In this document: positions 12,091 to 45,524 of the stretch, piece by piece
Position numbering within the stretch: the first letter of the stretch is position 1
How the letters are laid out: the number at the start of each line of letters is the position of its first letter
Source: Candidatus Bathyarchaeota archaeon
Lineage (GTDB): Archaea > Thermoproteota > Bathyarchaeia > Bathyarchaeales > Bathycorpusculaceae
NCBI GenBank assembly: GCA_023488905.1
Contig: JAMDCQ010000014.1
Location: 34,025-98,024, forward strand
Direction of reading: 5' to 3'
DNA: 64,000 nt
Position numbers and translations under genes: made by a program
The notes under the pieces: model-generated
Told to the model about the DNA's origin: nothing
The model's database searches: none
Seen by the model: only the letters and a program-made list of their open reading frames with translations

Positions 12091-12529
12091 TGATGCCGCC
12101 AACAAGTTGCCTGAAGAGCTCAGGGAAAATTACAAGGGGCATGCGCGTAAGGGTTCAGCTGTTATCGAGAGCCTCAAGGTTGCGGCGGCGCTAAAGTTGT
12201 GGTGTGATAGGGGTTATCGTGAGATGGGGTTTGAGGTATCGTCTGATCTTGGCGGAAAAACGTTTCACATTGACGTTGTGGCGCGGGATGAGAAGGGTAT
12301 GGTTGGCGTTGAGTGCATAAATAGCCCCCATTTAGGGTGGCTACGCTGGCGGGTAGCGCAGTTACGCCGCAGCCTACCTGAGGGCAGTTACCTGGTGGTT
12401 ATTTTTCCCTTTGGCTTGGATGAGCGACACATCGATAGGGCGGTAGAGTTGGTTGACGAGGTCTGGGTAACTGGAGAGGACGGCAGGGTTGAGCGAATGA
12501 TGTGCATGTCCGTCTTCCACAAGGGTTGA
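12080..12529 (+). CDS. Possible PD-(D/E)XK-fold protein downstream of RHH gene
   Basis: The 149-residue protein has a helix (VIESLKVAAALKLWCDRGY) followed by strands FHIDVVARDEKGMVGVEC. This helix and hairpin with an Asp at the start of one strand and Glu-x-Cys in the next recalls the restriction-endonuclease-like core, although Cys replaces the usual Lys, so it may be inactive. The remainder is a Rossmann-like alternation (SYLVVIFPFGLDERHIDRA). Coupling to an RHH-like gene suggests a regulator/effector pair, possibly toxin-antitoxin-like, but no toxin family is recognised. Confidence 0.55.
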   Translation: MIANDAANKLPEELRENYKGHARKGSAVIESLKVAAALKLWCDRGYREMGFEVSSDLGGKTFHIDVVARDEKGMVGVECINSPHLGWLRWRVAQLRRSLPEGSYLVVIFPFGLDERHIDRAVELVDEVWVTGEDGRVERMMCMSVFHKG

Positions 12530-22252: not shown

Positions 22253-22708
22253 CTACTTGAAGTTTTTCTGCAAATCATCCAAAGAAAGCACCGTAATTCC
22301 GCCTGCCTTGAGTAATTCCTCTGCCTTTACCACGTCGCTGATCCGTATGATTAGCGCAACTTTTCCATCTACATGGATGCCTGAAGAATAAGCGTATTCA
22401 ATGTTCATGCCGCTATCACCCAGAATCTTGGTGATTTTGGATAAACGGTCTTTTTCAGAGCTAAAAATCGCGGTGACTTCAGTGTTCTTCTTGGACTTAG
22501 CTAAATTGAACCCTGCATCCTCCAACAGCGATTCGGCACGTTGAGGGTTCTCGGCGATTAGGCGCACTAGACCGAATTCTCCTGCATCTGCGATGGAGAT
22601 GGCGAAAACGCGGATTTGGTTGTTATCCAGCTGGGACATGGCTTCGAAGAGGGAGCCTGGCCGATTATCGAGGAATACGCTGACTTGAGCAATGGGCAAC
22701 AGATACAC
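22253..22708 (-). CDS. Tandem ACT-domain protein
   Basis: The 151-residue protein carries two ACT folds: QVSVFLDNRPGSLFEAMSQL at the start and VTAIFSSEKDRLSKITKILG near residue 77. ACT domains bind amino acids. Stand-alone double-ACT proteins are repeatedly found next to phenylacetate-CoA ligase and indolepyruvate oxidoreductase genes, exactly as here, which suggests an amino-acid sensor for the divergent operon. It is divergent from livG across a 139-bp promoter region. Confidence 0.85.
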   Translation of the reverse strand: MYLLPIAQVSVFLDNRPGSLFEAMSQLDNNQIRVFAISIADAGEFGLVRLIAENPQRAESLLEDAGFNLAKSKKNTEVTAIFSSEKDRLSKITKILGDSGMNIEYAYSSGIHVDGKVALIIRISDVVKAEELLKAGGITVLSLDDLQKNFK

Positions 22709-22847: not shown

Positions 22848-23588
22848 TTGTTAAAATGCGTCGGTGTCTCCAAACGCTTCGGAGGGCTTCAAGCCTTAAA
22901 AAACGTTGATTTTATAGTAAACGACGGAGAAATCGCGGGGCTTGTTGGCCCCAACGGTTCAGGCAAGTCTACGTTGCTAAACCTCGTAAGCGGAGTCTAC
23001 AAACCTGACTCAGGTCAAATCCTGTTGCAGAACGAAGAAATCTCAAAGCTTCCTCCTCATGTAATCTGTGCTAAGGGGGTTACGAAGACCGCTCAGACGG
23101 TACAGTCTTTCCCCGAGATGACCGCGACAGAGAACGTGTTGACAAGCGTGCTTTTTAACAAGAAAAAAGACGACGAAACCGACGGCGTCACAAAAGCGCA
23201 TGAGTTGTTGACGTTTGTTGGGTTGGATAAGGAAAAGTTTGATGTGAAAGCCAAAAACCTAAACGTCGTGGAACTCCGTCGTATTCAACTTGCGAAGGCT
23301 TTGGCGACTAATCCTAAGCTGCTCTTGCTTGACGAGTTACTTACGGGTTTGACGCCTAAAGAATCCGACGAAGCCATCCAACTAATAAAGCAAATCAACA
23401 AGCAAGGCGTAACTGTCCTTTTGGTGGAGCACGTTATGAGAGTCATCATGGGTTTATGCAGCCGCGTCATCGTTTTGCATCATGGCGAAAAAATCTGCGA
23501 GGGCAGCCCCAAAGAAGTTTGCACTGACGATAACGTTGTGAAGGTGTATTTGGGTAAACGGTTTACTTTCGGCGAGGAGGAAGCTTAG
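22848..23588 (+). CDS. livG: Branched-chain-type ABC transporter ATP-binding protein LivG
   Basis: The 246-residue ATPase of a HAAT-family importer has Walker A GPNGSGKST near residue 37, a divergent signature region (LNVVELRRIQLAKAL), Walker B LLLLDELLTGL and the H-loop LLVEHVMRVI. In the signature the usual LSGGQ is replaced by LNVVE, which is odd. The D residue after Walker B is followed by ELL rather than EP, also atypical. The start is TTG with AGGAG upstream. It is the first gene of the operon; livF begins immediately after its stop. Confidence 0.88.
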   Translation: MLKCVGVSKRFGGLQALKNVDFIVNDGEIAGLVGPNGSGKSTLLNLVSGVYKPDSGQILLQNEEISKLPPHVICAKGVTKTAQTVQSFPEMTATENVLTSVLFNKKKDDETDGVTKAHELLTFVGLDKEKFDVKAKNLNVVELRRIQLAKALATNPKLLLLDELLTGLTPKESDEAIQLIKQINKQGVTVLLVEHVMRVIMGLCSRVIVLHHGEKICEGSPKEVCTDDNVVKVYLGKRFTFGEEEA

Positions 23589-24293
23589 ATGCTGGAAGTT
23601 GAGAATGTTTCTGCAGCTTACGGTATGGTGCAGATACTCCGAGATGTCTCATTCAAGATAGAGAAAGGAGAAATCGTCAGCATCATTGGCCCAAACGGGG
23701 CAGGAAAAACCACGCTGGTCAAAACCATTATGGGCTTCCTTAAACCCCAAACAGGCACCATCAAATTCAAGGGCGAAAACATCGAAAAATTAGCCACCAA
23801 CGACATTGTCAAAAAAGGGTTAACGATGATTCCTGAGGGCAGAGAAATCTTTCCCCGCATGTCTGTTGAAGAAAACTTGATGCTGGGCGCCTACACCATC
23901 ACGGATAAAGAAAAGATTAAGCAAACTAAAGAGAACGTTTACAAAATTTTTCCTGTGCTAAAGAAGAAGGAGAAAGCATTAGCTCAGACTCTTAGCGGGG
24001 GGGAACAGCAGATGTTGGTTATCTGCCGGAGCCTCATGTCGAACCCTGAGTTGCTGATTTTGGATGAACCCTCACTGGGGTTGGCGCCCATCATTGTTGA
24101 GAAGGTTCTTGATACGGTACGCGCGATCAACGAGGAGGGTGTCACCGTGCTTTTGGTGGAGCAGAACATCCATGACAGTTTAAACGTTGCCAACCGCGGC
24201 TACGTTCTTGAAGAAGGCAGGATTGTCTTGGAAGGAAAGAGTAGGGAACTTTTATCTAATAGTCACATAAAAGAAGTGTACTTAGGTCTCTAA
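23589..24293 (+). CDS. livF: Branched-chain-type ABC transporter ATP-binding protein LivF
   Basis: The 234-residue second ATPase has Walker A GPNGAGKTT, Q-loop region, signature LSGGEQQML, Walker B LLILDEPSLGL and H-loop LLVEQNIHD, all canonical, in contrast to its divergent partner. It begins at the ATG directly after the livG stop, so the two are translationally coupled and probably form the heterodimeric motor for LivHM. Confidence 0.93.
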   Translation: MLEVENVSAAYGMVQILRDVSFKIEKGEIVSIIGPNGAGKTTLVKTIMGFLKPQTGTIKFKGENIEKLATNDIVKKGLTMIPEGREIFPRMSVEENLMLGAYTITDKEKIKQTKENVYKIFPVLKKKEKALAQTLSGGEQQMLVICRSLMSNPELLILDEPSLGLAPIIVEKVLDTVRAINEEGVTVLLVEQNIHDSLNVANRGYVLEEGRIVLEGKSRELLSNSHIKEVYLGL

Positions 24294-24312: not shown

Positions 24313-25629
24313 GTGGATGGCAAGTACTGGAACCGGAAAATCGAAACCATGCCAAGGCAGCAAATAAAAGAACACCAACTACAAAAGCTCCGAGAACAAG
24401 TCAAATACTGCTACGAAAACAGCAGTTTCTACCACAAAAAATTCGACTCAGTAGGCTTAAAACCCCAAGACATACAAACATTAGAAGACCTAACGAAAAT
24501 TCCTTTCACAGTTAAAAGTGACTTACGTGACAACTACCCGTTTGGGATGGTTACCGTAAAACCCACTGAAATCGTGGAGATTCATGCCTCAAGCGGAACC
24601 ACAGGCAACCCTATAGTGGGCGCATACACCCGAAACGACATGGACGTCTGGTCGGAACTTATGGGTCGCTCCATCTACACCACTGGCGGCAGACCCCAAG
24701 ACGTCATCCACATCGCATACGGTTACGGCTTGTTCACGGGCGGCTTAGGCTTCCATTACGGCGCCCAGAAAGTCGGCGCAAAAATCATCCCTGCCAGCGG
24801 CGGCATGACCCAACGCCAAATCAAACTTATGAAGGACTTAGGCGCCACCATCTTGGCTTGCACGCCTAGCTTCGCGGTTTACCTTGCCGAAACGATGGCT
24901 CAAGAAGGTGTAGACCCAAGAAAGGACCTTAAACTCAAAAGAGGCATGTTCGGCGCGGAGCCCTGGTCAAGCAAGATTCGCGAGCGAATCGAGCAGCAAA
25001 TCGGTATCGAAGCGTTTGACGTTTACGGATTGACTGAACTCTGCGGTCCAGGCGTCTCTATCGAATGTGAGCAGCATGACGGTTTGCACATTTGGGAAGA
25101 CCACTTCATCGTGGAAACCATCGACCCTGACACGGGCGAGGTTTTAGCGGATGGAGAAGAAGGCGAACTGGTCTTCACAACTCTCACTAAAACAGGTTTA
25201 CCCATGCTTCGCTACAGAACCCGAGACATATCCAAAATAACCACTGAACAATGCAAGTGCGGTCGCACCCACTCGCGAATGCTCCGTGTGCAAGGACGCA
25301 GCGACGACATGCTCATCATACGCGGAGTAAACGTGTTTCCCTCACAAATCGAGTACGCAGTCATGTGCTTCTCCGAATTAGCCACCCAATACCTAATTGT
25401 TGTTGATAGACCCGGAGCACTCGACACCTTCGTAGTCAAAGTTGAATTATGTGAAAAAGCCGCCAGCAACCCACAGCTCGACAAAAACGCTTTGAAAAAT
25501 GAAGTCCAAAAACGAATCCACATCGTCACAGGCATAAGCGCCGACGTAGAAATCGTTAAACCAGACGAAATCCCAAGAACCGAGGGCAAAGCGAAAAGAG
25601 TACTTGACTTGCGCAAAGGTAAGATGTAA
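24313..25629 (+). CDS. paaK: Phenylacetate-CoA ligase (AMP-forming)
   Basis: The 438-residue adenylate-forming enzyme activates aryl acids to CoA thioesters at the cost of ATP to AMP. The P-loop SSGTTGNPIVGAYT is near residue 97, the aspartate motif YRTRDISKI near 300, and the C-terminal hinge GRSDDMLIIRGVNVFPSQIE is typical of PaaK. Its place between transporter ATPases and IorAB indicates work with aryl acids such as phenylacetate or indoleacetate, in either direction. GTG start, 19 bases after livF. Confidence 0.93.
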   Translation: MDGKYWNRKIETMPRQQIKEHQLQKLREQVKYCYENSSFYHKKFDSVGLKPQDIQTLEDLTKIPFTVKSDLRDNYPFGMVTVKPTEIVEIHASSGTTGNPIVGAYTRNDMDVWSELMGRSIYTTGGRPQDVIHIAYGYGLFTGGLGFHYGAQKVGAKIIPASGGMTQRQIKLMKDLGATILACTPSFAVYLAETMAQEGVDPRKDLKLKRGMFGAEPWSSKIRERIEQQIGIEAFDVYGLTELCGPGVSIECEQHDGLHIWEDHFIVETIDPDTGEVLADGEEGELVFTTLTKTGLPMLRYRTRDISKITTEQCKCGRTHSRMLRVQGRSDDMLIIRGVNVFPSQIEYAVMCFSELATQYLIVVDRPGALDTFVVKVELCEKAASNPQLDKNALKNEVQKRIHIVTGISADVEIVKPDEIPRTEGKAKRVLDLRKGKM

Positions 25630-25638
25630 GGATTAACG

Positions 25639-27828
25639 ATGACTAAGATTGCAGCAGATAAGCCAGGCACTTTCGCCTTGCTTAACGGAGATGAGGCAGT
25701 TGCACGCGGGGCACTGGAAACCGCAGTCAAGGTTGCCGCCGCCTATCCGGGGACTCCTTCTACAGAAATCTTGGAAGCCATAGCAGAAGTCGCCAAACAA
25801 TTCGGGATTTATGCGGAGTGGAGCATTAATGAGATTGTTGCCGCCGAAGTCGCGGTTGGTGCTTCCATGACCGGTGTCCGTGCAATCGTGTGCATGAAGC
25901 ATGTGGGGCTAAACGTCGCTGCCGACGCGGTCATGACGTTGGCGTACACGGGTGTTGAAGGTGGCTTGGTAATTGTGGTTTGTGATGATCCAGCCTTGCA
26001 TAGCAGTCAAAACGAACAGGACACCCGCTTCTTCGCCGTCCACTCCAAGTTGCCGCTGCTGGATGCGGGTAGCCCCCAAGAAGCCCTTGACATGGCACGC
26101 TATGCCTATGAACTTAGCGAGAAACTTCATCTTCCTGTAATCCTCAGATTGACCACCCGTGTTGCCCACGGTAAAGCTCGGGTAAAGTTGGGTGCCTTAG
26201 AGAAGATTATTCGACGCCCCGATTTCGACAAGAACGGCTCCAAATGGGTCATGGTGCCCTCAAACGCAATACGTCAACACCGCGTCTTGGAAAAAAGGCT
26301 ATCCGAGGCGAAGCTTGATGCAGAAACCTCACAATTCAACAGCTTAGAAGACAACGGAAGCGAAATAGGCATCGTAGGCAGCGGCGTCGGATACTGCTAC
26401 GCCCGCTCAGTCTTAGACACCAAAAAGTTTTCATGGCTAAAACTCGGGTTCGTGCACCCCTTCCCAGCCGAAATGGTTAAAGCGTTTGCATCGAAAGTCA
26501 AAAAACTCATCGTCATCGAAGAACTCAGACCATACTTAGAAGAAAACATCCAACGCCTAAAACTCGACGTGACAGGTAAAGCCGAGTTGGGATTGGAAGA
26601 AATCGGGGAGTTAACCCCTGATAGAGTCCGCGAAGCCTTTGCCAAGCTAGGCTTAACCGACAAACCAGAAGCCCCTCAACAGGTTGATTTGCCCCCTCGC
26701 CCCCCAGCACTGTGCCCCGGATGCCCCCACCGCGCGTTTTACTATGCGCTTAACATGGTTAATCAGTCTGTCCAGTGTGACAGCGACAAATGCGTCGGCT
26801 GCGACATATGCGAATACATCTGCTCCTTTGAGAAGGAAGGCATCTTTAACCCACTAAAATCCCGCATACGCGCCGTACGAATTAAAGTCATCAATAATAC
26901 GGCGATAACCTGCAAAGCTTGCATAAACGCGCCCTGCGTTGCAGCGTGCCCAGAAGATGCCCTTATTCAGTCAAAGCAAACAGGCACCGTCACAGTTGAC
27001 GAGGACAAATGCAAGGGCTGCGGCTGGTGCATAGAATCATGCCAATACGGCGCACTCACACTTCACCCAGTTACACATAAACCCCTAATCTGCGATACCT
27101 GCGGAGGCGACCCCAAATGTATCCCACTCTGCCCTGAGAGTGCCCTTAGCCTCAAGGGAAGGTCCGATGACAAAATCGTTACTGGCGACATCGGGTGCTA
27201 TACGCTAGGCGTTTTGCCTCCGGTGAAAGCGGTTCAATCCTGCCTCTGCATGGGTGCGGGAATCTCGCAGGCAGCAGGCATGTACCACGCCGGTGTAAAA
27301 GACAAAGTGTTCTCAGTTATCGGGGACTCAACGTTTTTCCACGGAGGCATGCCGGGACTGCTAAACATCGCTTACAACAAAGCCAACGTCTGCGTCGTCG
27401 TCATGGATAACAGTGTGGTTGCTATGACGGGGCATCAGCCGACGCCTGGGTCAGGCAAAACCGTCATGGGCGCGAACACAAAAATCATCCAAATAGCCGA
27501 CATCGCCAAAGCCGTCGGCATAGAAAAAGTCGTAACCGTAGACCCCTACGACTTAGAAGCCACCATAGCTGCCCTCAGAGAAATTACAAACTACGACGGT
27601 CCCTCAGTTCTCATATCCAAACGTCCCTGCCCACTCCTAACCGAAAAAGGCCCCAAACGTCAAGTTAAAGACACATGCAACGCATGCGGAGTCTGTACCA
27701 AAGCCTTCGGATGCCCAGCCATCACCCAAACAGGCGCACACGCCGAAATCGACACCACCCTCTGTAATGGGTGTGGAGTGTGCGAAACAGTATGCCCCTT
27801 TGGCGCCGTCGGGAGGAAAGAAAAGTGA
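25639..27828 (+). CDS. iorA: Indolepyruvate ferredoxin oxidoreductase alpha subunit with inserted 4-cluster ferredoxin domain
   Basis: IorAB oxidatively decarboxylates arylpyruvates to aryl-acetyl-CoA, reducing ferredoxin. The N-terminal pyrimidine-binding part (GAYPGTPSTEI-like AAYPGTPSTEILEAIAEV) and the TPP part (GDSTFFHGGMPGLLN) are standard. Between CPGCPHR near residue 358 and GDIGCYTLG near 516 there is an insert of roughly 135 residues. It contains four 4Fe-4S motifs (CVGCDICEYIC, CKACINAPCVAACP, CKGCGWCIESC, CDTCGGDPKCIPLCP), the pattern of DMSO-reductase-B/CooF-type subunits. The usual C-terminal two-cluster domain (CNACGVC, CNGCGVCETVC) is also present, for six potential clusters. 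The length (729) exceeds the usual about 600. The insert is unusual for the family. Confidence 0.93.
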   Translation: MTKIAADKPGTFALLNGDEAVARGALETAVKVAAAYPGTPSTEILEAIAEVAKQFGIYAEWSINEIVAAEVAVGASMTGVRAIVCMKHVGLNVAADAVMTLAYTGVEGGLVIVVCDDPALHSSQNEQDTRFFAVHSKLPLLDAGSPQEALDMARYAYELSEKLHLPVILRLTTRVAHGKARVKLGALEKIIRRPDFDKNGSKWVMVPSNAIRQHRVLEKRLSEAKLDAETSQFNSLEDNGSEIGIVGSGVGYCYARSVLDTKKFSWLKLGFVHPFPAEMVKAFASKVKKLIVIEELRPYLEENIQRLKLDVTGKAELGLEEIGELTPDRVREAFAKLGLTDKPEAPQQVDLPPRPPALCPGCPHRAFYYALNMVNQSVQCDSDKCVGCDICEYICSFEKEGIFNPLKSRIRAVRIKVINNTAITCKACINAPCVAACPEDALIQSKQTGTVTVDEDKCKGCGWCIESCQYGALTLHPVTHKPLICDTCGGDPKCIPLCPESALSLKGRSDDKIVTGDIGCYTLGVLPPVKAVQSCLCMGAGISQAAGMYHAGVKDKVFSVIGDSTFFHGGMPGLLNIAYNKANVCVVVMDNSVVAMTGHQPTPGSGKTVMGANTKIIQIADIAKAVGIEKVVTVDPYDLEATIAALREITNYDGPSVLISKRPCPLLTEKGPKRQVKDTCNACGVCTKAFGCPAITQTGAHAEIDTTLCNGCGVCETVCPFGAVGRKEK

Positions 27829-28412
27829 AGCTTGACGTAGTGTTTAGCGGTGTAGGCGGACAAGGCGTCGTAGTATTGAGCGATATCTACTGTGAAGCCG
27901 CTATGCTTGAAGGGTTCGATGTTGCTAAAGCGGAGATACATGGTATGGCTCAGCGAGGCGGCTCCATAGTTGCGTTTGCCCGGATCGGTAACAAAGTAGA
28001 ATCGCCCTTGATTGAGACCGGCAAGGCGGATGCTGTTGTAGGCTTCGAAATTCTCGAAACCGCCCGAGCATTACCGATGCTAAAAAAGAACGGCACAGTT
28101 ATTGTTAACATGAAACTTATTCAACCCAGCTGCCTGCCATCAGGCGTTAAACCTAAAACCAAAGACCAACTCATATCGCTACTCAAAGCGAAGGCTTTGG
28201 TGCATGAGGTGGATGGCATGGGCATCGCCGAGAAGCTTGGCAACATGCTTGTCGTCAACACGGTGCTGCTAGGGGCGCTCTCAGCGCTTCCCGAGATACC
28301 GCTCAAAGTCGAGTCCTTCCAGCAGGCTATAGCGGGCAGACTTAAAGAAAAATACATCAACCTGAACCTCAAAGCCTTCCAACTGGGCAGAGAAAGCGTG
28401 TTAAAGAGTTAA
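27825..28412 (+). CDS. iorB: Indolepyruvate ferredoxin oxidoreductase beta subunit
   Basis: The gamma-type subunit (195 residues) begins KLDVVFSGVGGQGVVVLSDI, with the GxGGQG loop, and contains EIHGMAQRGGSIVAFARIG, both diagnostic. The GTG start overlaps the iorA stop (GTGA) and has GGGAGG eight bases upstream, so it is coupled to IorA, with which it forms the alpha2beta2 enzyme. Length is normal. Confidence 0.93.
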   Translation: MKLDVVFSGVGGQGVVVLSDIYCEAAMLEGFDVAKAEIHGMAQRGGSIVAFARIGNKVESPLIETGKADAVVGFEILETARALPMLKKNGTVIVNMKLIQPSCLPSGVKPKTKDQLISLLKAKALVHEVDGMGIAEKLGNMLVVNTVLLGALSALPEIPLKVESFQQAIAGRLKEKYINLNLKAFQLGRESVLKS

Positions 28413-28468: not shown

Positions 28469-29848
28469 TTGCAAAAGAAAATGTTACTTGCATTAGTAGT
28501 CGTTGTAATCGTTGTCGTCTCAGCAGTAGCAGCGATACAATTAATGCCCAAACCCGCATCACCCGAAGCTAGAAACATCAAAATAGGCTTAGTCGCCCCT
28601 GTCTCAGGCTCGCCGATTGGACAAGACATGGAACGCGCCGCAAGAATGGCAGTTGACGAAATCAACAACGCAGGCGGCATCTACGTCTCAGCATGGAACA
28701 CCAAAGTCAACATAACCATCGTCGTCGCTGACACAGTCAACGATGCCCCAGGCAACGCCGTAACACCCGTCACCCGCGCGGTCGAAACCGACGGAGTAGA
28801 CCTCTTAATCGGAGGATACGGCAGCGCAGGCACACTCGCCAACGAAATCGTCGCCATCGAAAACAGAGTCCCCTACATCATCGCTGGAGCATCCAACGAA
28901 CTCGTAACCCGACGTGGACCACAAGGAAACTACGGCGGCCTCGGCGCACAAGGCACATACAGCATAAGCGACGAGGAAGGAATGAGCTACGTATTCCATT
29001 ACTGCACCACCACTCTTGACTATAGCAAAACCGTTGTTCAATTCTTCGCCAACGAAATGAAACCACTGGTCGCAGAAGACCGCGACTTTAGATTAGCATT
29101 ACTTTACCGCAATGACGCCTTCGGAACAGGAGTTGCACAGGCAACTAAATTCTGGATAGAAAACCTCAGCTTACCTATAACCATAGTGGCTGACAGAAGC
29201 TACGAAACCACAACAACCAACTACCAAACCGACTTAACCGCTGTTAAATCAACAAACCCCGACGCAGTCTTCGTCGTAGACAACCCCGACAAAACCCCCC
29301 TCATAATCAAACAGGGCTGGAACGAGGTTGGCCTAAAGTCAGTTTATATAGCCGTTGAAAACAATCAAGACCCCGCATTCTACACACTTCTAGGCGAAAC
29401 AGGCAGCGGACAGCTACTTGAATCAAAGCTTGACCCATTCATGAGTCCCTCATACCTACCAGCTGTAGAGGAATACTCAGAGAAATTCCTAGAACTATAC
29501 GATGTCTATCCAGGCATGATGGGCGCAGACACCTACGACGCATTCTACGTAGCTAAAGACGCCATAGAGAGAGCAGGAACACTTGACAAGGCAGAAGTTC
29601 GCACAGCCATAGAAAACACAGACCTACCACAGATGCTAATAATGACTGAATCAGGCAGAATACGATTCAGCACAGGCATAAACTACCACGAAATCAGCCC
29701 AGTAACATTCATAGAACAACTATACTGGGACAACACAAGCAACGCACTAAAGTCACGCATCGTTTGGTCACCGTTCTCACCAGGCGGCATGGAACTAAAA
29801 CAAGCAGACTTCGCTTTGCCCACCGGCTACCAAGCTGGAAGCCCATAA
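28469..29848 (+). CDS. livJ: ABC transporter substrate-binding protein (LivJ/LivK type)
   Basis: A short N-terminal hydrophobic segment (MLLALVVVVIVVVSAVAAI) acts as signal or anchor. A periplasmic-binding-protein type I domain follows: IKIGLVAPVSGSPIGQDMER, DLLIGGYGSAGTLANEIVA and MMGADTYDAFYVAKDAIERA. It would capture branched-chain or aromatic amino acids or their keto acids outside the cell for LivHMGF. TTG start with GAGG upstream. A T-rich stretch right after the stop may end part of the transcripts. Confidence 0.88.
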   Translation: MQKKMLLALVVVVIVVVSAVAAIQLMPKPASPEARNIKIGLVAPVSGSPIGQDMERAARMAVDEINNAGGIYVSAWNTKVNITIVVADTVNDAPGNAVTPVTRAVETDGVDLLIGGYGSAGTLANEIVAIENRVPYIIAGASNELVTRRGPQGNYGGLGAQGTYSISDEEGMSYVFHYCTTTLDYSKTVVQFFANEMKPLVAEDRDFRLALLYRNDAFGTGVAQATKFWIENLSLPITIVADRSYETTTTNYQTDLTAVKSTNPDAVFVVDNPDKTPLIIKQGWNEVGLKSVYIAVENNQDPAFYTLLGETGSGQLLESKLDPFMSPSYLPAVEEYSEKFLELYDVYPGMMGADTYDAFYVAKDAIERAGTLDKAEVRTAIENTDLPQMLIMTESGRIRFSTGINYHEISPVTFIEQLYWDNTSNALKSRIVWSPFSPGGMELKQADFALPTGYQAGSP

Positions 29849-29892
29849 ATTTTTTTCCCTCCTTTTCTTTTGTTCTCGCATATTTTAAATAG
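29849..29892 (+). terminator. T-rich terminator followed by a TATA box before livH
   Basis: ATTTTTTTCCC and CTTTTCTTTTG directly follow the livJ stop, an archaeal-type T-rich terminator. ATTTTAAATAG at about 29881-29891 then looks like an internal promoter for livH-livM-paaI, allowing the binding protein to be expressed separately from the permeases. Confidence 0.45.
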
Positions 29893-29944
29893 TTAACATG
29901 CTAAATTATGTCAACCGCTGCAGAGGGAGAGAGGAAAACACTAC

Positions 29945-30823
29945 ATGGATATCACGGCACCAACAATCATCTTAACTTTAGTTTGGGGTGTCGCCATCGG
30001 CTGCGTCTACATCCTGCTCGCCACAGGGTTGAACCTTATTTTCGGCGTCATGAAACTCGTCAACTTCGCCCATGGACAGCTCCTCATGTTAAGCGCCTTT
30101 TTAACGTGGACTATATCCGTTGCTTCAGGAATGAACGCTTACCTCGCCATCATCGTCTCCATGATTGTCGTAGCCCTCTTAGGCGTAGGAGTAGAAAGGC
30201 TAACGTTTCGCAGAGTGCTTGGAACAGACAAGCTTAACGAGATTTTCGTTAGCCTCGGCTTAATCTACATCTTCGAAAACGCCGCCATGCTCATCTGGGG
30301 ACCACAACCAAAACAGATCGTCAGCCCCTTTAGCGGCATGAGCCTTGCATTACCAGGAGTATCCATAACCTACGACCGCATAATCGCCGTGGTCGTCGTA
30401 GTCGCTGCTTTAGCGGCTTTTGGGGTGCTCATAAAGAAAACAAAAATCGGCTTAGCCATGCGCGCCACCAGCCAACGAAACACCACCGCCATGCTCATGG
30501 GCATAAACGTGGAAAAAATCTACATGATAACCTTCGCCATCGGCGCGGCTTTAGCGGCTGTTGCAGGCGGACTTTACGGCATAATTTTCTCTTTTGATTA
30601 TCAGGTTGGCGCGATGCCCACTATCATAGCGTTTGCTATCATTATCATGGGTGGGTTGGGAAGCATCAAAGGCGCCATAGTTGGCGGATTGCTATACGGC
30701 ATAGCGGAACAGTTGGCAACACTGTTTTTGGGCGGTATCTGGGGAAGCGCCGTCGCCTTCGCCCTACTCATCGTAGTGCTCGTGATTAGGCCCAACGGAA
30801 TATTCGGTGAAAAAGGAGAATAA
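29945..30823 (+). CDS. livH: Branched-chain-type ABC transporter permease LivH
   Basis: The 292-residue polytopic protein has GVAIGCVYILLATGLNLIFGVMK and FAHGQLLMLSAF near the N-terminus and AIIIMGGLGSIKGAIVGGLL near residue 235, the EAA-like coupling region of LivH. About eight helices are visible. It pairs with LivM, which starts two bases after its stop. The GTEK-type loop GLAMRATSQRNTTAMLMGIN is also characteristic. Confidence 0.93.
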   Translation: MDITAPTIILTLVWGVAIGCVYILLATGLNLIFGVMKLVNFAHGQLLMLSAFLTWTISVASGMNAYLAIIVSMIVVALLGVGVERLTFRRVLGTDKLNEIFVSLGLIYIFENAAMLIWGPQPKQIVSPFSGMSLALPGVSITYDRIIAVVVVVAALAAFGVLIKKTKIGLAMRATSQRNTTAMLMGINVEKIYMITFAIGAALAAVAGGLYGIIFSFDYQVGAMPTIIAFAIIIMGGLGSIKGAIVGGLLYGIAEQLATLFLGGIWGSAVAFALLIVVLVIRPNGIFGEKGE

Positions 30824-30825
30824 AA

Positions 30826-31944
30826 ATGACGCTAAAACAACAACTCACCAAACTTGTCCGCTCCAAAAGCTTCCTCTTCATGATCGCCGTCTTCGCCGTC
30901 CTCGCGCTACTGCCGATATTTATCAGCGACAACTTTTTCCTAACAGTCCTCACCCTAATCACCATCTTTTCCATCTATGCGGCGAGCTGGAATTTCTTGG
31001 CGAACTCGGGTCAAGGCTCCCTTGGGCACGCCCTCTTTTTAGGCGTCGGCGGCTTTGCTTCAGCAATCATAGGTAGCTCAATCGCGACGGCTACAGCCAA
31101 CTTATTGGGTTCAACGCAGTTGCCAGTCGGTGCCCTCTCAGTAACCATTCAAATCTTATCTCTCCTCTTAGGCGGTTTGCTTTCTGCGGGAATCGGCTTG
31201 CTGATCGGTTTAGCCTGCGTTAGACTGAAAGCATGGTACTTAGCTATGGTGACTTTCGGCTTCTCAGTCATCGCTGCAACGCTCTCAAGCCAATTTGACG
31301 CGATAACACAGGGCATAAACGGCTTCCCCACTACAACACTTGTTACCAGAGGCTTTCCCTTCTACATTTTAGTCCTCTCCTTCGCGATTGTATCCATAGC
31401 TGCTATGTACATAATCACAAAATCAAGAATGGGAATGGCGTTCAAAGCAATCCACGGCAACGAACCAGAAGCAAAAATGATCGGCATCAACACAGCAAAA
31501 TACAAACTCATCGCATTCGTAATCAGCACCTTCTTTGCAGGCATAGCTGGAGGCTTATACGCCTACTTCATCAGACTCATCGACAACTCGGTGTTTTCCC
31601 CGTTGAACTCGTTTACGCCGCTGATCATGACGGTCATCGGAGGATTAGGCACAGTGGTAGGTCCAATCATAGGCACCGTCTTCTTGGTTTCAATCCAACA
31701 ACTCTTAGCCTTGCCAAGCGTGGTTGATTCGCTTCGAGCCTCTCTGGGGCCACTGTTCCCAGAAGTCAGCAACGTAGGTGCGCCACTTGGGTTTCTGATT
31801 ATAGGAATAATCCTACTTGTAATAGTTATTTTCCTTCCAAAAGGGCTTGTTTCTCTTCCACAAAAATCTAAAACTATGATGCCGAGAATTCAGAAACTCG
31901 TTAAACGTATTAGCAGCAAATTTAAGAGGAAAAAACCGAAATGA
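30826..31944 (+). CDS. livM: Branched-chain-type ABC transporter permease LivM
   Basis: The 372-residue permease has AASWNFLANSGQGSLGHALFLG and MAFKAIHGNEPEAKMIGIN (coupling loop) and GGLGTVVGPIIGTVFLV, all typical of LivM, with about ten hydrophobic segments and a long basic tail (KLVKRISSKFKRKKPK). It overlaps the thioesterase gene by four bases (ATGA), keeping the last three genes coupled. Confidence 0.93.
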   Translation: MTLKQQLTKLVRSKSFLFMIAVFAVLALLPIFISDNFFLTVLTLITIFSIYAASWNFLANSGQGSLGHALFLGVGGFASAIIGSSIATATANLLGSTQLPVGALSVTIQILSLLLGGLLSAGIGLLIGLACVRLKAWYLAMVTFGFSVIAATLSSQFDAITQGINGFPTTTLVTRGFPFYILVLSFAIVSIAAMYIITKSRMGMAFKAIHGNEPEAKMIGINTAKYKLIAFVISTFFAGIAGGLYAYFIRLIDNSVFSPLNSFTPLIMTVIGGLGTVVGPIIGTVFLVSIQQLLALPSVVDSLRASLGPLFPEVSNVGAPLGFLIIGIILLVIVIFLPKGLVSLPQKSKTMMPRIQKLVKRISSKFKRKKPK

Positions 31945-32303
31945 AGGGCACAGACTACTTCGCAGACGCCTTAGGCATAAAAGAGCATGAAGTCAAAGAC
32001 GGCTACGCAAAAGTCTCCATGCAAATACAGAAAACCCACACTAACGCCTTAGGATTCACGCACGGCGGTGCCATCTTTTCACTGGCGGACTACGCTTTTG
32101 CGTTAGCATGCAACTATGGCGACAATGTGGCGGTTGCGGTTGAGGTTGACATCAAGTTTCTGCGTCCCACTGTTGAAGGGGACTGCTTAACTGCGGAGGC
32201 GACGCGGGTTTCGGATGGGAAAACCACGGGGTTGTACCATGTTGCGGTGCGCAAAGATGACAAGTTGGTTGCGTTTTTTTCGGGTTTAGCGTTCAAAAAG
32301 TAA
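31941..32303 (+). CDS. paaI: PaaI-type hotdog thioesterase
   Basis: The 120-residue single hotdog domain has TNALGFTHGGAIFSLADYAFALACN, the PaaI signature with the active Asp in the helix, followed by strands VAVEVDIKFLRP and GLYHVAVRKDDKLVAFFSG. PaaI hydrolyses phenylacetyl-CoA-type thioesters that accumulate. As last gene of the aryl-acid operon it would free CoA when ligase or IorAB products build up. Confidence 0.9.
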   Translation: MKGTDYFADALGIKEHEVKDGYAKVSMQIQKTHTNALGFTHGGAIFSLADYAFALACNYGDNVAVAVEVDIKFLRPTVEGDCLTAEATRVSDGKTTGLYHVAVRKDDKLVAFFSGLAFKK

Positions 32304-39004: not shown

Positions 39005-41554
39005 TTATGGCCGTTTTCTTACGATAAGCATTAATGCGGCTGTTGCTACTGCGACTGCAACGATAACAGCGATGCCCATACCTATGATGTAGCTTTCGTA
39101 GGGTGGAGCCGCGGCGACTGGTGTCGGTGTAGGTGTTGGCTCTGTTTCCGATACAACTATGGCAGTTTCTGCACTTGAAGGCCAGTAGGATTCTGAACCT
39201 GCGAACGTAGCAAACACTGAGTATTCGCCTGGAACTTCAGGGGTGAAGGCTAGTTTGTAGAATCCGTTTGAGTCGCTGGTTGTGGTGCCGACGTTGTAGG
39301 CGTTGCCGTTGGGGTCAAGTACGCTTATGGTTACTTTGACGCCGGTTGCGTTGGTGGGTTTCGGTTGCTGCATGTAAACGTATTCCATCCATGCGCTTTG
39401 GCTTTCGTCGGAGACCGCGGGGACGCCGTGTGGGAATCTTGCGGTTCTGTCTGAGTCTGTTGTGCCTGCGGATATGTCGATTACATTGCCTTCGACGAGG
39501 ACGGCGGTACCTTGCTCGGAGATTTTGGGTGAAGCTGCCACTATAGTAGATGAGGGACCCTTGCCTATTGAGTAGATTTGGCTGTCAAAGCTGTTCCATT
39601 GGATCAGGTAACCATCGGCAGCGGCTGTAGGTACACGACCAGTGAAGCTCAGAATGCTCCACACAAGTTCGCCTGTTGTAGTGTTTATTGCAAGTTGCTG
39701 CGCGCCCGGATAGACTGGTGGGTCGTACATGTGGCTTTCTGAGATGAAGAGTTTGCCGTCTGCAATCATGCCGTTGTACCAGACGGGGTAGATGCCATAG
39801 CCAGTGTTGTATCCTGAACTTCTCGGTACATAAGTCCAGTCGATTTTTCCGGTCTCTAAGTCAACTGCGTTGACGTATCCGCCAAAGCCGAAAATGAAGA
39901 TTTTGCCGTATGCGACTTCTGCAGCTATTGATATGTGGTCCCATGCATTGCCAGGAAGCTTTACGGGTCCCCATATCAGGTTACCGTTTTTCATCGAGTA
40001 ACCGTAGGCTTCGTTTGTGTCTTTGTTGTGTAGCACGTATGTATTTTCGCCTGCACCCATGACTGCTACATCCTGCAGTTTAGGTATGGTTTGGTTCTTG
40101 GGGCCCCAGAGTAGTTGACCTGTTTTTGCGTTGTAGCCTGCTGTCACTTGGGAGCCATAGCTTAGTGAAGAGAACTGGTTGTATGTTGGCGCATACCGAA
40201 GTACTATCACGTCATGGTCGCGTATTGCTATTCCGCCTGGGGATATTTCTGCTGGAAGCTGCACGGTCCATTCGATTCCTTCAGTCCAGTTTTTGGTGCC
40301 TGAGGGGCGCATTGTTATTCCATCTGCGCCTAGCATGAGTCTGCTGGAATTCCACATTGTGAGGTTGCCGCCGCTTGTGTAGTAACCAAGGAGGCTTCCT
40401 TTCTGGTCTGAATCTTCTATTTCATCGATTAAGAATGCTGGATTTTGGATGTTAGTGATGTTCATTAAATATTCGCCGCTGTAGGCATCGTAGACGGACA
40501 TGTATTCGGGGGTGCCAAAGAATGATGCTGATGGACAGCTGTATAGGAAGGCCCAGGAGCCGAATTCCTGTATGGATTTGAAACGCATTACTTGACCCAT
40601 GCGGATGACTTCGTTTCCTGATTCACCAGCAGACCTTGTCCACAGGGTTTCGCCTGTGCGTATGTCAACAGCTACCCAAGCGGATTTTATGGCGCTGGGA
40701 CCCGCGTATTCAGTGTAGTAGAGGACTCCGTTGAGGATTATTGGTTCGAAGTAGTTAGTTGCGATTGTAGTTGTCATGTAGTTGCTCATTTGGTCATTAG
40801 GTATTGGAAGCCCTGGTTGTCCGCCAAAGTGTGTAGATTTAACCCACATTATGTGTCCAGTGTTTGGTGCAGTGCCGTATGGCTGGAAGTTGCCAGTAGC
40901 ATCGTAACCGCCGGTGGTTGCAAATGCTGGTGCTGCTAACCCATACCAGTTGGAACCTAGCTCAGCCCAGAAATAGTTTTGTGCCTGAATTGGTCGTGAC
41001 CAGTACTCGGTTGGAAGCGGAGCGGTATTGAACATAGGTATAGGGTCTTCTTGAACTATGAGGGTAACGGTTTCACTTTCGCTTTTTAAGTAGGTGATAT
41101 TGTAGAAAGTCGGGGGACCGAAGAAATTCATTACGGTTTCTTCCGCGTGCTGTCCGGGGTAGGTGGCTTTGAATGTGTAGTTGCCCGTTTGGTCAGGTGT
41201 AAAGTTGGTCCATGTTCCACCAGTGCTGTCAGATTTGCCCATATCAATAGTCATCTTGCTTCCGTCAGGCTTTGTGACTGCAACTTTGATGCCTTCATAC
41301 ATTGTTCCTGTTCCCATGAATCCAGCGGTAATTGGCGGTTTTGTCATGAAAGCATTAACAAGTGCTTCTTGTCCAGCCCCTATTGGGTTGGGAGCAACGT
41401 TAATCATTAGAAAGGTAGGGACTTCCGTGGCTACGGAGCCGTCGTCTTGCGCATTAATGAGCGGCAAAGCAGAAAGCGTGCTCATTGCTAAAAATAGAAC
41501 CATTGCGATTACAGTTGATATTTTAGATGTATGCAGTTTTAGTTTTAATTTCAT
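39005..41554 (-). CDS. Surface PQQ-like beta-propeller protein, paralogue 1
   Basis: The 849-residue secreted protein consists of a signal peptide (IAMVLFLAMSTLSALPLINA), an N-terminal beta domain, a PQQ/quinoprotein-like propeller with repeats such as WVAVDIRTGETLWTR and VNAVDLETGKIDWTY, an Ig-like domain (VKVTISVLDPNGNAYNVGTT), and a Pro/Thr stem with a C-terminal helix. The repeats lack an obvious PQQ ligand set, so it may be a binding or structural protein. The ATG at 41554 follows AAGGAG at good spacing; upstream residues in frame are not a signal peptide. The paralogue at 42942 shares its architecture and promoter. Confidence 0.82.
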   Translation of the reverse strand: MKLKLKLHTSKISTVIAMVLFLAMSTLSALPLINAQDDGSVATEVPTFLMINVAPNPIGAGQEALVNAFMTKPPITAGFMGTGTMYEGIKVAVTKPDGSKMTIDMGKSDSTGGTWTNFTPDQTGNYTFKATYPGQHAEETVMNFFGPPTFYNITYLKSESETVTLIVQEDPIPMFNTAPLPTEYWSRPIQAQNYFWAELGSNWYGLAAPAFATTGGYDATGNFQPYGTAPNTGHIMWVKSTHFGGQPGLPIPNDQMSNYMTTTIATNYFEPIILNGVLYYTEYAGPSAIKSAWVAVDIRTGETLWTRSAGESGNEVIRMGQVMRFKSIQEFGSWAFLYSCPSASFFGTPEYMSVYDAYSGEYLMNITNIQNPAFLIDEIEDSDQKGSLLGYYTSGGNLTMWNSSRLMLGADGITMRPSGTKNWTEGIEWTVQLPAEISPGGIAIRDHDVIVLRYAPTYNQFSSLSYGSQVTAGYNAKTGQLLWGPKNQTIPKLQDVAVMGAGENTYVLHNKDTNEAYGYSMKNGNLIWGPVKLPGNAWDHISIAAEVAYGKIFIFGFGGYVNAVDLETGKIDWTYVPRSSGYNTGYGIYPVWYNGMIADGKLFISESHMYDPPVYPGAQQLAINTTTGELVWSILSFTGRVPTAAADGYLIQWNSFDSQIYSIGKGPSSTIVAASPKISEQGTAVLVEGNVIDISAGTTDSDRTARFPHGVPAVSDESQSAWMEYVYMQQPKPTNATGVKVTISVLDPNGNAYNVGTTTSDSNGFYKLAFTPEVPGEYSVFATFAGSESYWPSSAETAIVVSETEPTPTPTPVAAAPPYESYIIGMGIAVIVAVAVATAALMLIVRKRP

Positions 41555-41576
41555 TTTTTCTTTTCTCCTTATTTGA

Positions 41577-41615
41577 ATTGAGCAAAACTGAGATGACATG
41601 TCAGCTCTGCTCAAT
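41577..41615 (-). promoter_or_regulatory. Leader hairpin upstream of propeller gene 1
   Basis: ATTGAGCA (41577-41584) and TGCTCAAT (41608-41615) are perfect inverted repeats enclosing the palindrome TGACATGTCA. A related ATTGAGCA/TTGCCCAA pair occurs in the same position upstream of the paralogue (45550-45590). It may be an operator or a mRNA leader stem. Confidence 0.5.
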
Positions 41616-42941: not shown

Positions 42942-45524
42942 TTAGGACCGTTTTCTGATTATGAGTACTGTGGCTACTGCGACTGCGATGATTACGGCTA
43001 TACACATACCCACGATGTACATTTCGTAAGGTGGACTAGCTTGGATGGGTGTTGCTGTTGCGGTTGGCTGAGGTTCTTCAACCATGAATGCGGTTTCGGC
43101 GTGTGAACCGTAGTATGCTGCGGATCCGTCGAAGCTTGCGTGTACATGGAATTCGCCGGGGATGTCGGGAACCCAGTTTAAGCTGTAGAACCCGTCTGAG
43201 CTGCTGGTGGTTGTGCCGATGCTTCGGTAGTTGCCGTTAGAGTCGACTACACTGATAGTTACTGGTACACCTGACGTGTTTGCTGGTCTAGCGAACTGTT
43301 TGTACGTGTATAGCATCCAGTCTGAGATTGAGGCGTCTGAGACTGCCGCTACGCCGTTTGGAAAGCGCAGTTTCACCGATTCATCTTGGGTACCTGGCGA
43401 AATGTCGAGAACTGTGCCTTTGATAGTTACTGATCTTCCGAATTCTATACCCATGTCTGGTGCAGTAACGGTGGTTGCTGTGGGTCCTTTGCCTACTGCG
43501 TAGACCATCTGGTTGTAGGTGTCCATGGTTGCGATGATGCTGTCACCCATGACTGCGCTTCCGCCCCAGTCTGTCTGTCTGAGCATGCCGGCAATTGACC
43601 AGATTACCTCTCCTGTTGTTGCGTTGATGCAGACGAAGGGTGCGCCGCGGGGTTGTGGTTGGTTGACTGAGTGTTCGCTTTGTCCGAGGTAGATTTTGCC
43701 GTCGGCAACAATACGTGGACGTAATGAAGACCAGTAGTCAGACCACAAGGTTTCTGACCATGGATCCTTGTAGGTATAGTTCCATAGCAATTTGCCTGTC
43801 TGTGCGTTGTATGCGTACATTATGCCGCTCATGCCGTTTGAGTAGAGTATGCCGTTGTAGATACGCGGATACATGGCGAAGACGTCAAGATAGTTCTGTG
43901 GTGCAGTCGGTCCCCATTTCAGGTTGCCTGTATCGATATCATAAGCCCAGAATTGCGCTAGTTCCTTGCTCCATAGACATATGACTCGGTCTTCAGCGCT
44001 TCCTGCCGCAACTGAAAGGGTTACGTTTCCTGATGGTGCTGCAATGGTCTTGTTGAATTTCAATGCGCCTGTTTTTGCGTCAATTGCCCACAGTACGAAC
44101 GGTGCATCGTTGAGAGTGACCACCGTGAACATTCCAGTTGTCTGGAGTCTTTGGTAGCCAACTATTACGTCATCGGGGTATACGTATTGGGCGCTTCCGA
44201 GCAAGCCTTTGGGTATGGTGATGTTCTTGGTGTAGCCGTTGTATCCGTATGGTGTTGCTGATGTTACTGGGCATGGTCCGGTGGCGTTGATGGTTTTTCC
44301 TTGTGGTTGCCATGAGCCAAACATTGGGCTGTTTTGGGTTGTGCCCCAGTATGCGTCGATGACGGCGGTTGAATTCCAAATAGTCATGTAGCCAGCCTGA
44401 TAGTTGAGAGTGTAAATTAGGATTTCACCGTTTGGCCCGTACATGCGAGTTCCGCTGGGCATGTTTGTGTAGGTGAATAGCCAACGTCCAGTGAAGGGGT
44501 CAAAAGCGTCTAATGTGGTTGAACCTCCGAAGCCAAAGAAACCGCTACTTGTTGCACAGAATAGGTATGGATAGACACCTTGGGTGTTAAAGCTCTTCCA
44601 ATACATTATTTGGCCATATTGTGGTACTACACGTTCGCCTGCTGGGTTCTTGAGGTCTTTCTGCCAGAGGGGTTCTCCAGTGTGGATGTCGACTGCAATT
44701 ATGGAGTTGTTCAGTGCATTGCCACCAACTGTATCGAATTCTTGGTAGATTAGTACACCCATGATTACTAGAGTATTGGTGAATTTGCCTTCGTATGCGT
44801 CTCCTGGGAACACTGCTGCTTGTTCAGAAATACCTATGCCGCCAGCTAAACCGCCGATCTGTAATGGTTTTTGCCATAGAACGTGCGCAGTGTCTGGTGC
44901 ATCGTCTTGTCCTTTGACAAATTGACCGCCGTAGCTACCTGGAGACAACCAACTGCCTGAAATTACGTTCCATTCTCTGATTTGAGAGTCGATGGGCCGT
45001 GACCAGTATTCAGTTGGCATGGGTACTCCAGGCCAGTATTGTTTTTCTTCGGCGCCCACTACGAGTTCGAGTATTGGGCTGTCGTCAGCTTTGTATAGGC
45101 ATTTGACATCTTGTGCTCCTAAGAAGAAGTCATAGGTACTATAGTTGTACCATTGTTCGGGGAAATGGGTTTGAAGTTTATACGTGCCTTCTTGGTCAGG
45201 TACATAAACTGTGCCTGTGCCTCCTGTTGAGTCAGTATCGAATGGGCCAAGCATCTGGGTTGTATTGTCGGGTTTTGTAATTGTGACGGTTAAGCCGCGC
45301 CATTTGTCCTCGGTTATTTGTAGCGCTTCAGTGATACCAATGTGTAAAAGGACTTCTTCGCCGACAGCGCATGGGTTAGGTGTGGCTCCGATGTACGCAT
45401 ATGAAGCTTTCCAACCTGTGTAGCTTTGTGCACGAATAGGTATGACCAGCATCGAAGAAATCATTGACAATATTAGAGCGATCGATAGAGCTACCGCTAT
45501 CTTTTCGAATTTAACAATTTTCAT
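42942..45524 (-). CDS. Surface PQQ-like beta-propeller protein, paralogue 2
   Basis: The 860-residue paralogue of the protein at 39005 has the same order: signal peptide (IALILSMISSMLVIPIRAQS), beta domain with VTITKPDNTTQMLGPFDTDS, PQQ-like propeller (IIAVDIHTGEPLWQKD, LWAIDAKTGALKFNK, MYAYNAQTGKLLWNY), Ig-like domain (VPVTISVVDSNGNYRSIGTT), Pro/Thr stem and C-terminal helix (YIVGMCIAVIIAVAVATVLI). GTGGAG precedes the ATG. The pair was probably formed by duplication around the regulator. The substrate or ligand is unknown. Confidence 0.82.
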   Translation of the reverse strand: MKIVKFEKIAVALSIALILSMISSMLVIPIRAQSYTGWKASYAYIGATPNPCAVGEEVLLHIGITEALQITEDKWRGLTVTITKPDNTTQMLGPFDTDSTGGTGTVYVPDQEGTYKLQTHFPEQWYNYSTYDFFLGAQDVKCLYKADDSPILELVVGAEEKQYWPGVPMPTEYWSRPIDSQIREWNVISGSWLSPGSYGGQFVKGQDDAPDTAHVLWQKPLQIGGLAGGIGISEQAAVFPGDAYEGKFTNTLVIMGVLIYQEFDTVGGNALNNSIIAVDIHTGEPLWQKDLKNPAGERVVPQYGQIMYWKSFNTQGVYPYLFCATSSGFFGFGGSTTLDAFDPFTGRWLFTYTNMPSGTRMYGPNGEILIYTLNYQAGYMTIWNSTAVIDAYWGTTQNSPMFGSWQPQGKTINATGPCPVTSATPYGYNGYTKNITIPKGLLGSAQYVYPDDVIVGYQRLQTTGMFTVVTLNDAPFVLWAIDAKTGALKFNKTIAAPSGNVTLSVAAGSAEDRVICLWSKELAQFWAYDIDTGNLKWGPTAPQNYLDVFAMYPRIYNGILYSNGMSGIMYAYNAQTGKLLWNYTYKDPWSETLWSDYWSSLRPRIVADGKIYLGQSEHSVNQPQPRGAPFVCINATTGEVIWSIAGMLRQTDWGGSAVMGDSIIATMDTYNQMVYAVGKGPTATTVTAPDMGIEFGRSVTIKGTVLDISPGTQDESVKLRFPNGVAAVSDASISDWMLYTYKQFARPANTSGVPVTISVVDSNGNYRSIGTTTSSSDGFYSLNWVPDIPGEFHVHASFDGSAAYYGSHAETAFMVEEPQPTATATPIQASPPYEMYIVGMCIAVIIAVAVATVLIIRKRS

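Follow-up and report, generated by a model that had tools for sequence, protein, structure and literature searches.

The alpha subunit of indolepyruvate:ferredoxin oxidoreductase (IorA) encoded in the analysed 64,000-nucleotide stretch of a Bathyarchaeia genome (the window) contains an additional domain with four [4Fe-4S] motifs, which constitutes a real, conserved and clade-specific domain insertion. Judged by sequence, the insert is closest to the WorS/AorA family of small subunits in tungsten aldehyde oxidoreductases, rather than to DmsB or CooF, and by alignment it interrupts the loop between ligands 2 and 3 of the proximal cluster, i.e. the first electron hop from TPP. On balance, we lean towards the view that this captured domain serves as a second electron conduit at the proximal cluster.

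The four-cluster domain within IorA

The iorA product scored 706.5 bits against the IorA equivalog model TIGR03336 (cut-off 650.9) and combines POR_N and TPP_enzyme_C domains in one chain, with iorB adjacent and with both the proximal-cluster cysteines and the C-terminal two-cluster domain of the family present; its predicted activity, by family, is that of an arylpyruvate:ferredoxin oxidoreductase. It is the only IorA in the window's 1.79-Mb genome, whose close relatives include, among the matches listed, Candidatus Bathycorpusculum. The ATG start codon of iorA lies nine bases past the paaK stop codon, and a promoter scan scored below chance, which is uninformative because the scan is built for bacterial promoters. 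The coordinates of the gene, its cluster motifs and its neighbours are compiled in Table 1.

Table 1. Features of the insert-bearing iorA locus (positions within the window)
Feature	Position	Strand	Basis
iorA: indolepyruvate:ferredoxin oxidoreductase alpha subunit with four-cluster insert, 729 aa	25639..27828	+	TIGR03336, PF01855, PF02775
Proximal-cluster ligands 1 and 2, CPGC (C359, C362)	26713..26724	+	hhalign to CAGC of POR beta; conserved in all IorAs
Four-[4Fe-4S] insert, aa about 376-512	about 26764..27174	+	phmmer to 6x6u, 6x1o, 9mqx, 8c0z; absent from other IorAs
Cluster motif I, C385-x2-C388-x2-C391-x3-C395	26791..26823	+	invariant in 36 insert rows and 30 standalone S subunits
Cluster motif II, C425-x2-C428-x4-C433-x3-C437	26911..26949	+	invariant in 36 insert rows and 30 standalone S subunits
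Cluster motif III, C458-x2-C461-x2-C464-x3-C468	27010..27042	+	invariant in 36 insert rows and 30 standalone S subunits
Cluster motif IV, C485-x2-C488-x5-C494-x3-C498	27091..27132	+	invariant in 36 insert rows and 30 standalone S subunits
Proximal-cluster ligand 3, C520 (GDIGC)	27196..27198	+	aligned to QATGC of POR beta; invariant
Proximal-cluster ligand 4, C664 (RPC)	27628..27630	+	aligned to APC of POR beta
C-terminal two-cluster ferredoxin domain usual for IorA, C680-C719	27676..27795	+	invariant in insert rows
iorB: beta subunit, PF01558, overlapping the iorA end	27819..28412	+	adjacent in every sufficiently flanked insert-IorA locus examined
paaK: arylacetate (phenylacetate)-CoA ligase, AMP-forming	24313..25629	+	TIGR02155, 570 bits, under the cut-off of 646
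livG, livF: ATPases of a branched-chain amino acid-type ABC importer	22848..24293	+	livG family hits; conserved in operon
livK, livH, livM: binding protein and permeases of the same importer	28469..31944	+	PF13458 for LivK; LivH/LivM by sequence and position
PaaI-like hotdog thioesterase	31941..32303	+	TIGR02286, 116 bits, slightly under the cut-off of 118.9
ACT-domain-like protein, divergent from the operon	22253..22708	-	position conserved; assigned from sequence without profile scan
ADP-forming acyl-CoA synthetase alpha-beta fusion with C-terminal GNAT acetyltransferase domain, 941 aa	19275..22100	-	TIGR02717, over cut-off

The TIGR03336 match to IorA is divided into two stretches, leaving approximately 135 residues between CPGCPHR and GDIGCYTLG unmatched, and the 16 motif cysteines located in this gap are without exception conserved in alignments of 29 and of 36 insert-bearing IorAs. 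A first-pass annotation of the same DNA had described such an insertion at 26770-27180, in good agreement with the boundaries given in Table 1, as a four-cluster ferredoxin domain with complete 4Fe-4S motifs, present alongside the customary two-cluster domain at the C-terminus; this description is confirmed by the model gap and the invariant cysteines, by the recognition of the insert by Pfam Fer4 families and its homology to solved Fe-S subunits, and by the retention of C680-C719. The Fer4 matches, the homology and the recurrence in 41 genomes also speak against a chance pattern. A seventeenth cysteine, C380 (26776..26778), is situated shortly ahead of motif I and is invariant in all insert-bearing IorAs; the corresponding position in standalone S subunits is mostly occupied by alanine.

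The insert evolves under purifying selection with its frame intact (dN/dS of 0.03-0.21 across seven pairs), although it evolves faster than the IorA core (mean pairwise identity of 0.58 versus 0.76), its variability exceeding that of the core except at the cysteines. As the majority of the genomes are metagenome-assembled, the insert could in principle be an assembly chimera or a pseudogene; however, its recurrence in 41 independent genomes, some of them single-contig assemblies, together with the intact frames and low dN/dS values, refutes this explanation, to which we attach practically no weight.

Kinship, distribution and origin of the insert

When the insert was compared to solved structures by phmmer, the Fe-S subunits of tungsten oxidoreductases ranked first (6x6u, 2.7e-25; 6x1o, 4.8e-25), with the aldehyde oxidoreductase subunit 8c0z at 1.4e-22, while DMSO-reductase-type subunits ranked lower. 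The best standalone matches in related genomes were open reading frames of approximately 170 aa (up to 64% identity) which adjoin aldehyde oxidoreductase (AOR) large-subunit genes; for example, S subunit G059:C1:119271 lies 3' of a large-subunit match ending at 119169, and S subunit G050:C80:11994 adjoins a large-subunit match at 12506. All 16 insert cysteines are common to the 36 insert-bearing IorAs and 30 standalone S subunits. The insert therefore resembles the WorS/AorA subunits of class II-III tungsten oxidoreductases (WOR5, 6x6u; AOR, 8c0z) in its four motifs, their order, the aligned positions of the 16 cysteines and its homology to the solved members, and shares 46-64% identity with Bathyarchaeia S subunits; in contrast to these, it is not a separate gene paired with the large-subunit gene (WorL) but is joined to IorA at both ends, in an operon without WorL. 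The DMSO-reductase-B/CooF character originally attributed to the insert holds as regards motif order and the double-ferredoxin fold, both of which it shares with four-cluster ferredoxins of the DmsB/CooF/HycB type, but not as regards the closest family, since the sequence distance to these proteins is greater than that to WorS.

With a profile of the insert and its flanks, the insert was detected in 41 of 257 Bathyarchaeia genomes (E < 1e-100), the next matches being standalone S subunits at about 1e-58. Of these, 28 belong to the window's genus (32 genomes), 10 are spread over six other genera of its family, and three come from one genus (g16) of another family; one of the latter, G102, is probably the same as the Bathyarchaeum record L075. 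No insert was found outside the class among 398 genomes drawn from the phylum (threshold 1e-62), nor among 247 genomes drawn from the phylum of a Methanococcoides and 247 from that of a deltaproteobacterial genome (1e-50). The insert-bearing IorAs share with other TIGR03336 members the domain order, the TPP domain, the proximal-cluster cysteines, the C-terminal two-cluster domain and the adjacent iorB, whereas their CPGCPHR-DIGCY spacing is 145-151 residues instead of 14-33, with four extra clusters. Measured independently of insert similarity, the CPGC-DIGC loop falls in the longer range throughout the insert lineage and in the shorter range in about 55 IorAs from other phyla and eight from other Bathyarchaeia. 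Thus, across the genomes sampled in both the insert and the loop-length surveys, the insert is restricted in its phyletic range rather than common throughout IorA proteins, none having been found outside Bathyarchaeia.

Both IorA types were not encountered together in any sampled genome, aside from one genome with a full and a shortened copy. In this genome (G018), the second IorA (L043:8839-10824, on G018:C54) adjoins an iorB without the PaaK/Liv operon and displays an in-frame loss of about 75 insert residues, by which motif I is left with its first three cysteines and motifs II and III are gone, motif IV being complete; this could reflect natural reduction or an assembly error. Barring this copy and one contig-edge fragment, every IorA found in the window's genus has the insert, and three genomes of the genus (G013, G022 and G029) yielded no IorA core match at 1e-20.

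In a tree of the IorA core, computed without the insert, the insert-bearing IorAs group in a single clade (SH-aLRT 100) and the insert-free IorAs of other Bathyarchaeia form their own separate clade. Likewise, in a tree of the inserts with 30 standalone subunits, the inserts form one clade (100/100), and a single insertion is thus the simplest reading of the two phylogenies. Losses, and possibly transfer of the operon as a unit, are suggested by the patchy distribution within genera and by the occurrence of the operon in two families. Six IorAs from Nitrospirota, TA06 and Altiarchaeota (L081, L084, L099, L110, L113 and L114), with lengths of about 526-603 aa, adjoin the insert clade on the core tree with a support of 85. 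Seven insert-free IorAs in the alignment are without the C-terminal two-cluster domain, and apparently derive mostly from this Nitrospirota/TA06/Altiarchaeota group.

Operon, candidate partners and reaction direction

The gene order ACT, LivG, LivF, PaaK, IorA, IorB, LivK, LivH, LivM and PaaI is preserved in most insert loci of both families; some loci are without Liv genes, with PaaK-IorA-IorB still together, and insert-free IorAs are located elsewhere. The ADP-forming acyl-CoA synthetase is found near the operon in close relatives only (L058, L193, L194 and L195). Elsewhere in the window, the minus strand encodes, at 39005..41614 and 42942..45524, two large and possibly secreted or surface-located proteins that contain PQQ/BamB-like repeats and, in one case, an Ig-like region.

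The first-pass annotation had further proposed that electrons from arylpyruvate oxidation would be delivered to a dedicated partner. No such partner emerged: the conserved insert-IorA operon contains no redox protein genes, and searches for AOR, hydrogenase and HdrB yielded no gene that tracks the insert. A hydrogenase-coupled IOR was not supported, as five insert-bearing genomes (G019, G020, G026, G027 and G031) gave no match to NiFe hydrogenase (PF00374, 1e-10), while HdrB-type PF02754 is present in 58 of 61 genomes whether or not they bear the insert and, being near-universal, is uninformative in this respect. The homology to WorS raises the possibility that the insert has kept its ancestral docking role and recruits WorL, such that arylacetaldehyde leaked by IOR would be oxidized in one complex with shared wiring; indeed, an OFOR can release aldehyde without use of its cluster (PMC5020499), and AORs are present in 59 of 61 relatives. 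However, both WorL genes of the window genome (on C17) already adjoin their own WorS, five genomes (G004, G012, G017, G023 and G028) carry the insert with only a remote WorL match, and the operon is without AOR, and we therefore regard this arrangement as unlikely.

The oxidative direction assumed in the earlier proposal could not be established either, because the AMP-forming ligase of the operon fits reductive carboxylation equally well. The ligase and the importer are compatible with arylacetate assimilation, a role for which PaaK and IOR have been argued in Bacteroides and methanogens (PMC13285125). Accordingly, the insert might be the electron entry for reductive carboxylation, whereby PaaK would activate imported arylacetates and IorAB would carboxylate the CoA ester to arylpyruvate, with electrons supplied by way of the insert, for aromatic amino acid salvage. 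This reading, which concerns direction and may be true together with the conduit explanation, gains from the retention of the AMP-forming PaaK and the importer in most operons, and from a 2026 study according to which an IOR beside an AMP-forming arylacetate ligase may be biosynthetic, as in methanogens (PMC13285125). It is tempered by chorismate synthase, which almost every searched genome of the genus possesses, so that de novo synthesis is probable and salvage would not be essential, and by the ADP-forming synthetase adjoining the operon in close relatives, which is suited to ATP gain and would fit fermentation; with arylacetates as the presumed importer substrate, we hold it as a tentative possibility, somewhat short of an even chance. 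A termite-gut study assumes a fermentation role and lists Ior in these archaea, the insert being unmentioned in the portions of that work considered here (PMC7886697).

Placement at the proximal cluster and the proposed electron conduit

In this enzyme family, two of the proximal-cluster ligands are provided by the GC of the loop following the CxGC loop and by a late PC. The TPP domain of IorA (with the insert removed) was aligned by hhalign to the beta subunit of pyruvate:ferredoxin oxidoreductase (POR) of the same genome (E of 3.3e-9), whereby all four cysteines, C359, C362, C520 and C664, coincided with POR beta cysteines, and it is this correspondence that places the insert between ligands 2 and 3. 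The CxGC loop itself is the proximal-cluster motif (PMC5020499). An AlphaFold2 model based on an alignment of 130 rows, including insert-free IorAs and standalone S subunits, reached a mean pLDDT of 92.3 and a pTM of 0.87 (insert blocks about 81-94), while the use of 29 close sequences only gave a weak model (pLDDT 67). The insert in the model displays the helix-strand pattern of the double ferredoxin fold, and the best solved matches to the model are pyruvate:ferredoxin oxidoreductases (PFORs). The PFORs of Desulfovibrio africanus and Moorella (domains I-VII) are alike in overall fold, proximal cluster and the two-cluster ferredoxin domain as electron exit, but possess a single two-cluster exit branch and a proximal-cluster loop without an inserted domain.

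We propose that a WorS/AorA-type subunit, formerly a separate partner in a tungsten aldehyde oxidoreductase, entered an ancestral IorA at this loop in a single event, such that the chain would bind a predicted seven clusters (the proximal one, four in the insert and two in the C-terminal domain) and the insert would be anchored at the cluster through which electrons pass to and from the TPP intermediate. Its position within the cysteine loop of the proximal cluster is one from which the insert could carry electrons. In the AOR of Aromatoleum, AorA moves electrons from the cluster of the catalytic subunit to FAD, the catalytic cluster being 11.9 A from FS1 and all gaps among the four AorA clusters being below 15 A (PMC10413684), and class II WorLS enzymes pass electrons to ferredoxin (PMC13328260); the insert is therefore taken as a putative second built-in conduit, beside the C-terminal two-cluster branch, between TPP and soluble ferredoxin or, alternatively, another acceptor or donor encoded elsewhere. 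The enzyme would act with PaaK, IorB and the Liv-type importer on arylpyruvates and aryl-CoA esters. While the anatomy, origin, placement, conservation and operon were computed, we infer the cluster loading, electron path, partner and direction. Of the initial idea of a built-in polyferredoxin delivering electrons, the complete four-cluster domain and a placement compatible with electron transfer were upheld, and the dedicated partner and oxidative direction were not. The invariant cysteines, WorS kinship, ligand 2-3 placement, confident model, purifying selection and single clades argue for the conduit, whereas the retained C-terminal branch, which makes a second conduit not obviously needed, the faster evolution of the insert relative to the core and the lack of a partner gene tracking the insert in the searches made argue against it.

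Since the insert sits at the proximal-cluster loop, it might instead mainly shield or stabilize this cluster against oxygen, or serve assembly, without electron transport, in the manner of the extra domain of DaPFOR, which covers the proximal cluster and gives oxygen stability (PMC5020499); yet the 16 ligands are invariant in 36 sequences despite divergence elsewhere in the insert, and such a role seems to us improbable. Less probable still, and by a wide step, is that the insert forms a filamentous wire joining numerous IOR units, in the way that AorA builds the AOR nanowire (PMC10413684), given that AorA filaments depend on a particular C-terminal helix restricted to the subclade of AorA (PMC10413684) and that the C-terminus of the domain is here joined back into IorA. 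The preferred conduit reading may be extended, with considerable doubt, to a two-exit keto acid oxidoreductase in which electrons could proceed from the proximal cluster into either the C-terminal branch or the captured WorS wire. No description of such wiring was found for any 2-oxoacid:ferredoxin oxidoreductase, nor any report of the IorA insert, in the open-licence papers searched. Two exits, if real, would permit two acceptors of different potential or a complex with another oxidoreductase.

The capture of an entire electron-wire subunit from one enzyme family in the first-cluster loop of an unrelated family indicates that electron-transfer modules can enter active-site-proximal loops, besides being added at chain ends, and offers the testable prediction of a branched electron path in 2-oxoacid:ferredoxin oxidoreductases. 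Amino acid use by Bathyarchaeia has so far mostly been a matter of genome-based inference, and the insert can serve in these archaea as a specific marker of the metabolism of aromatic keto acids.
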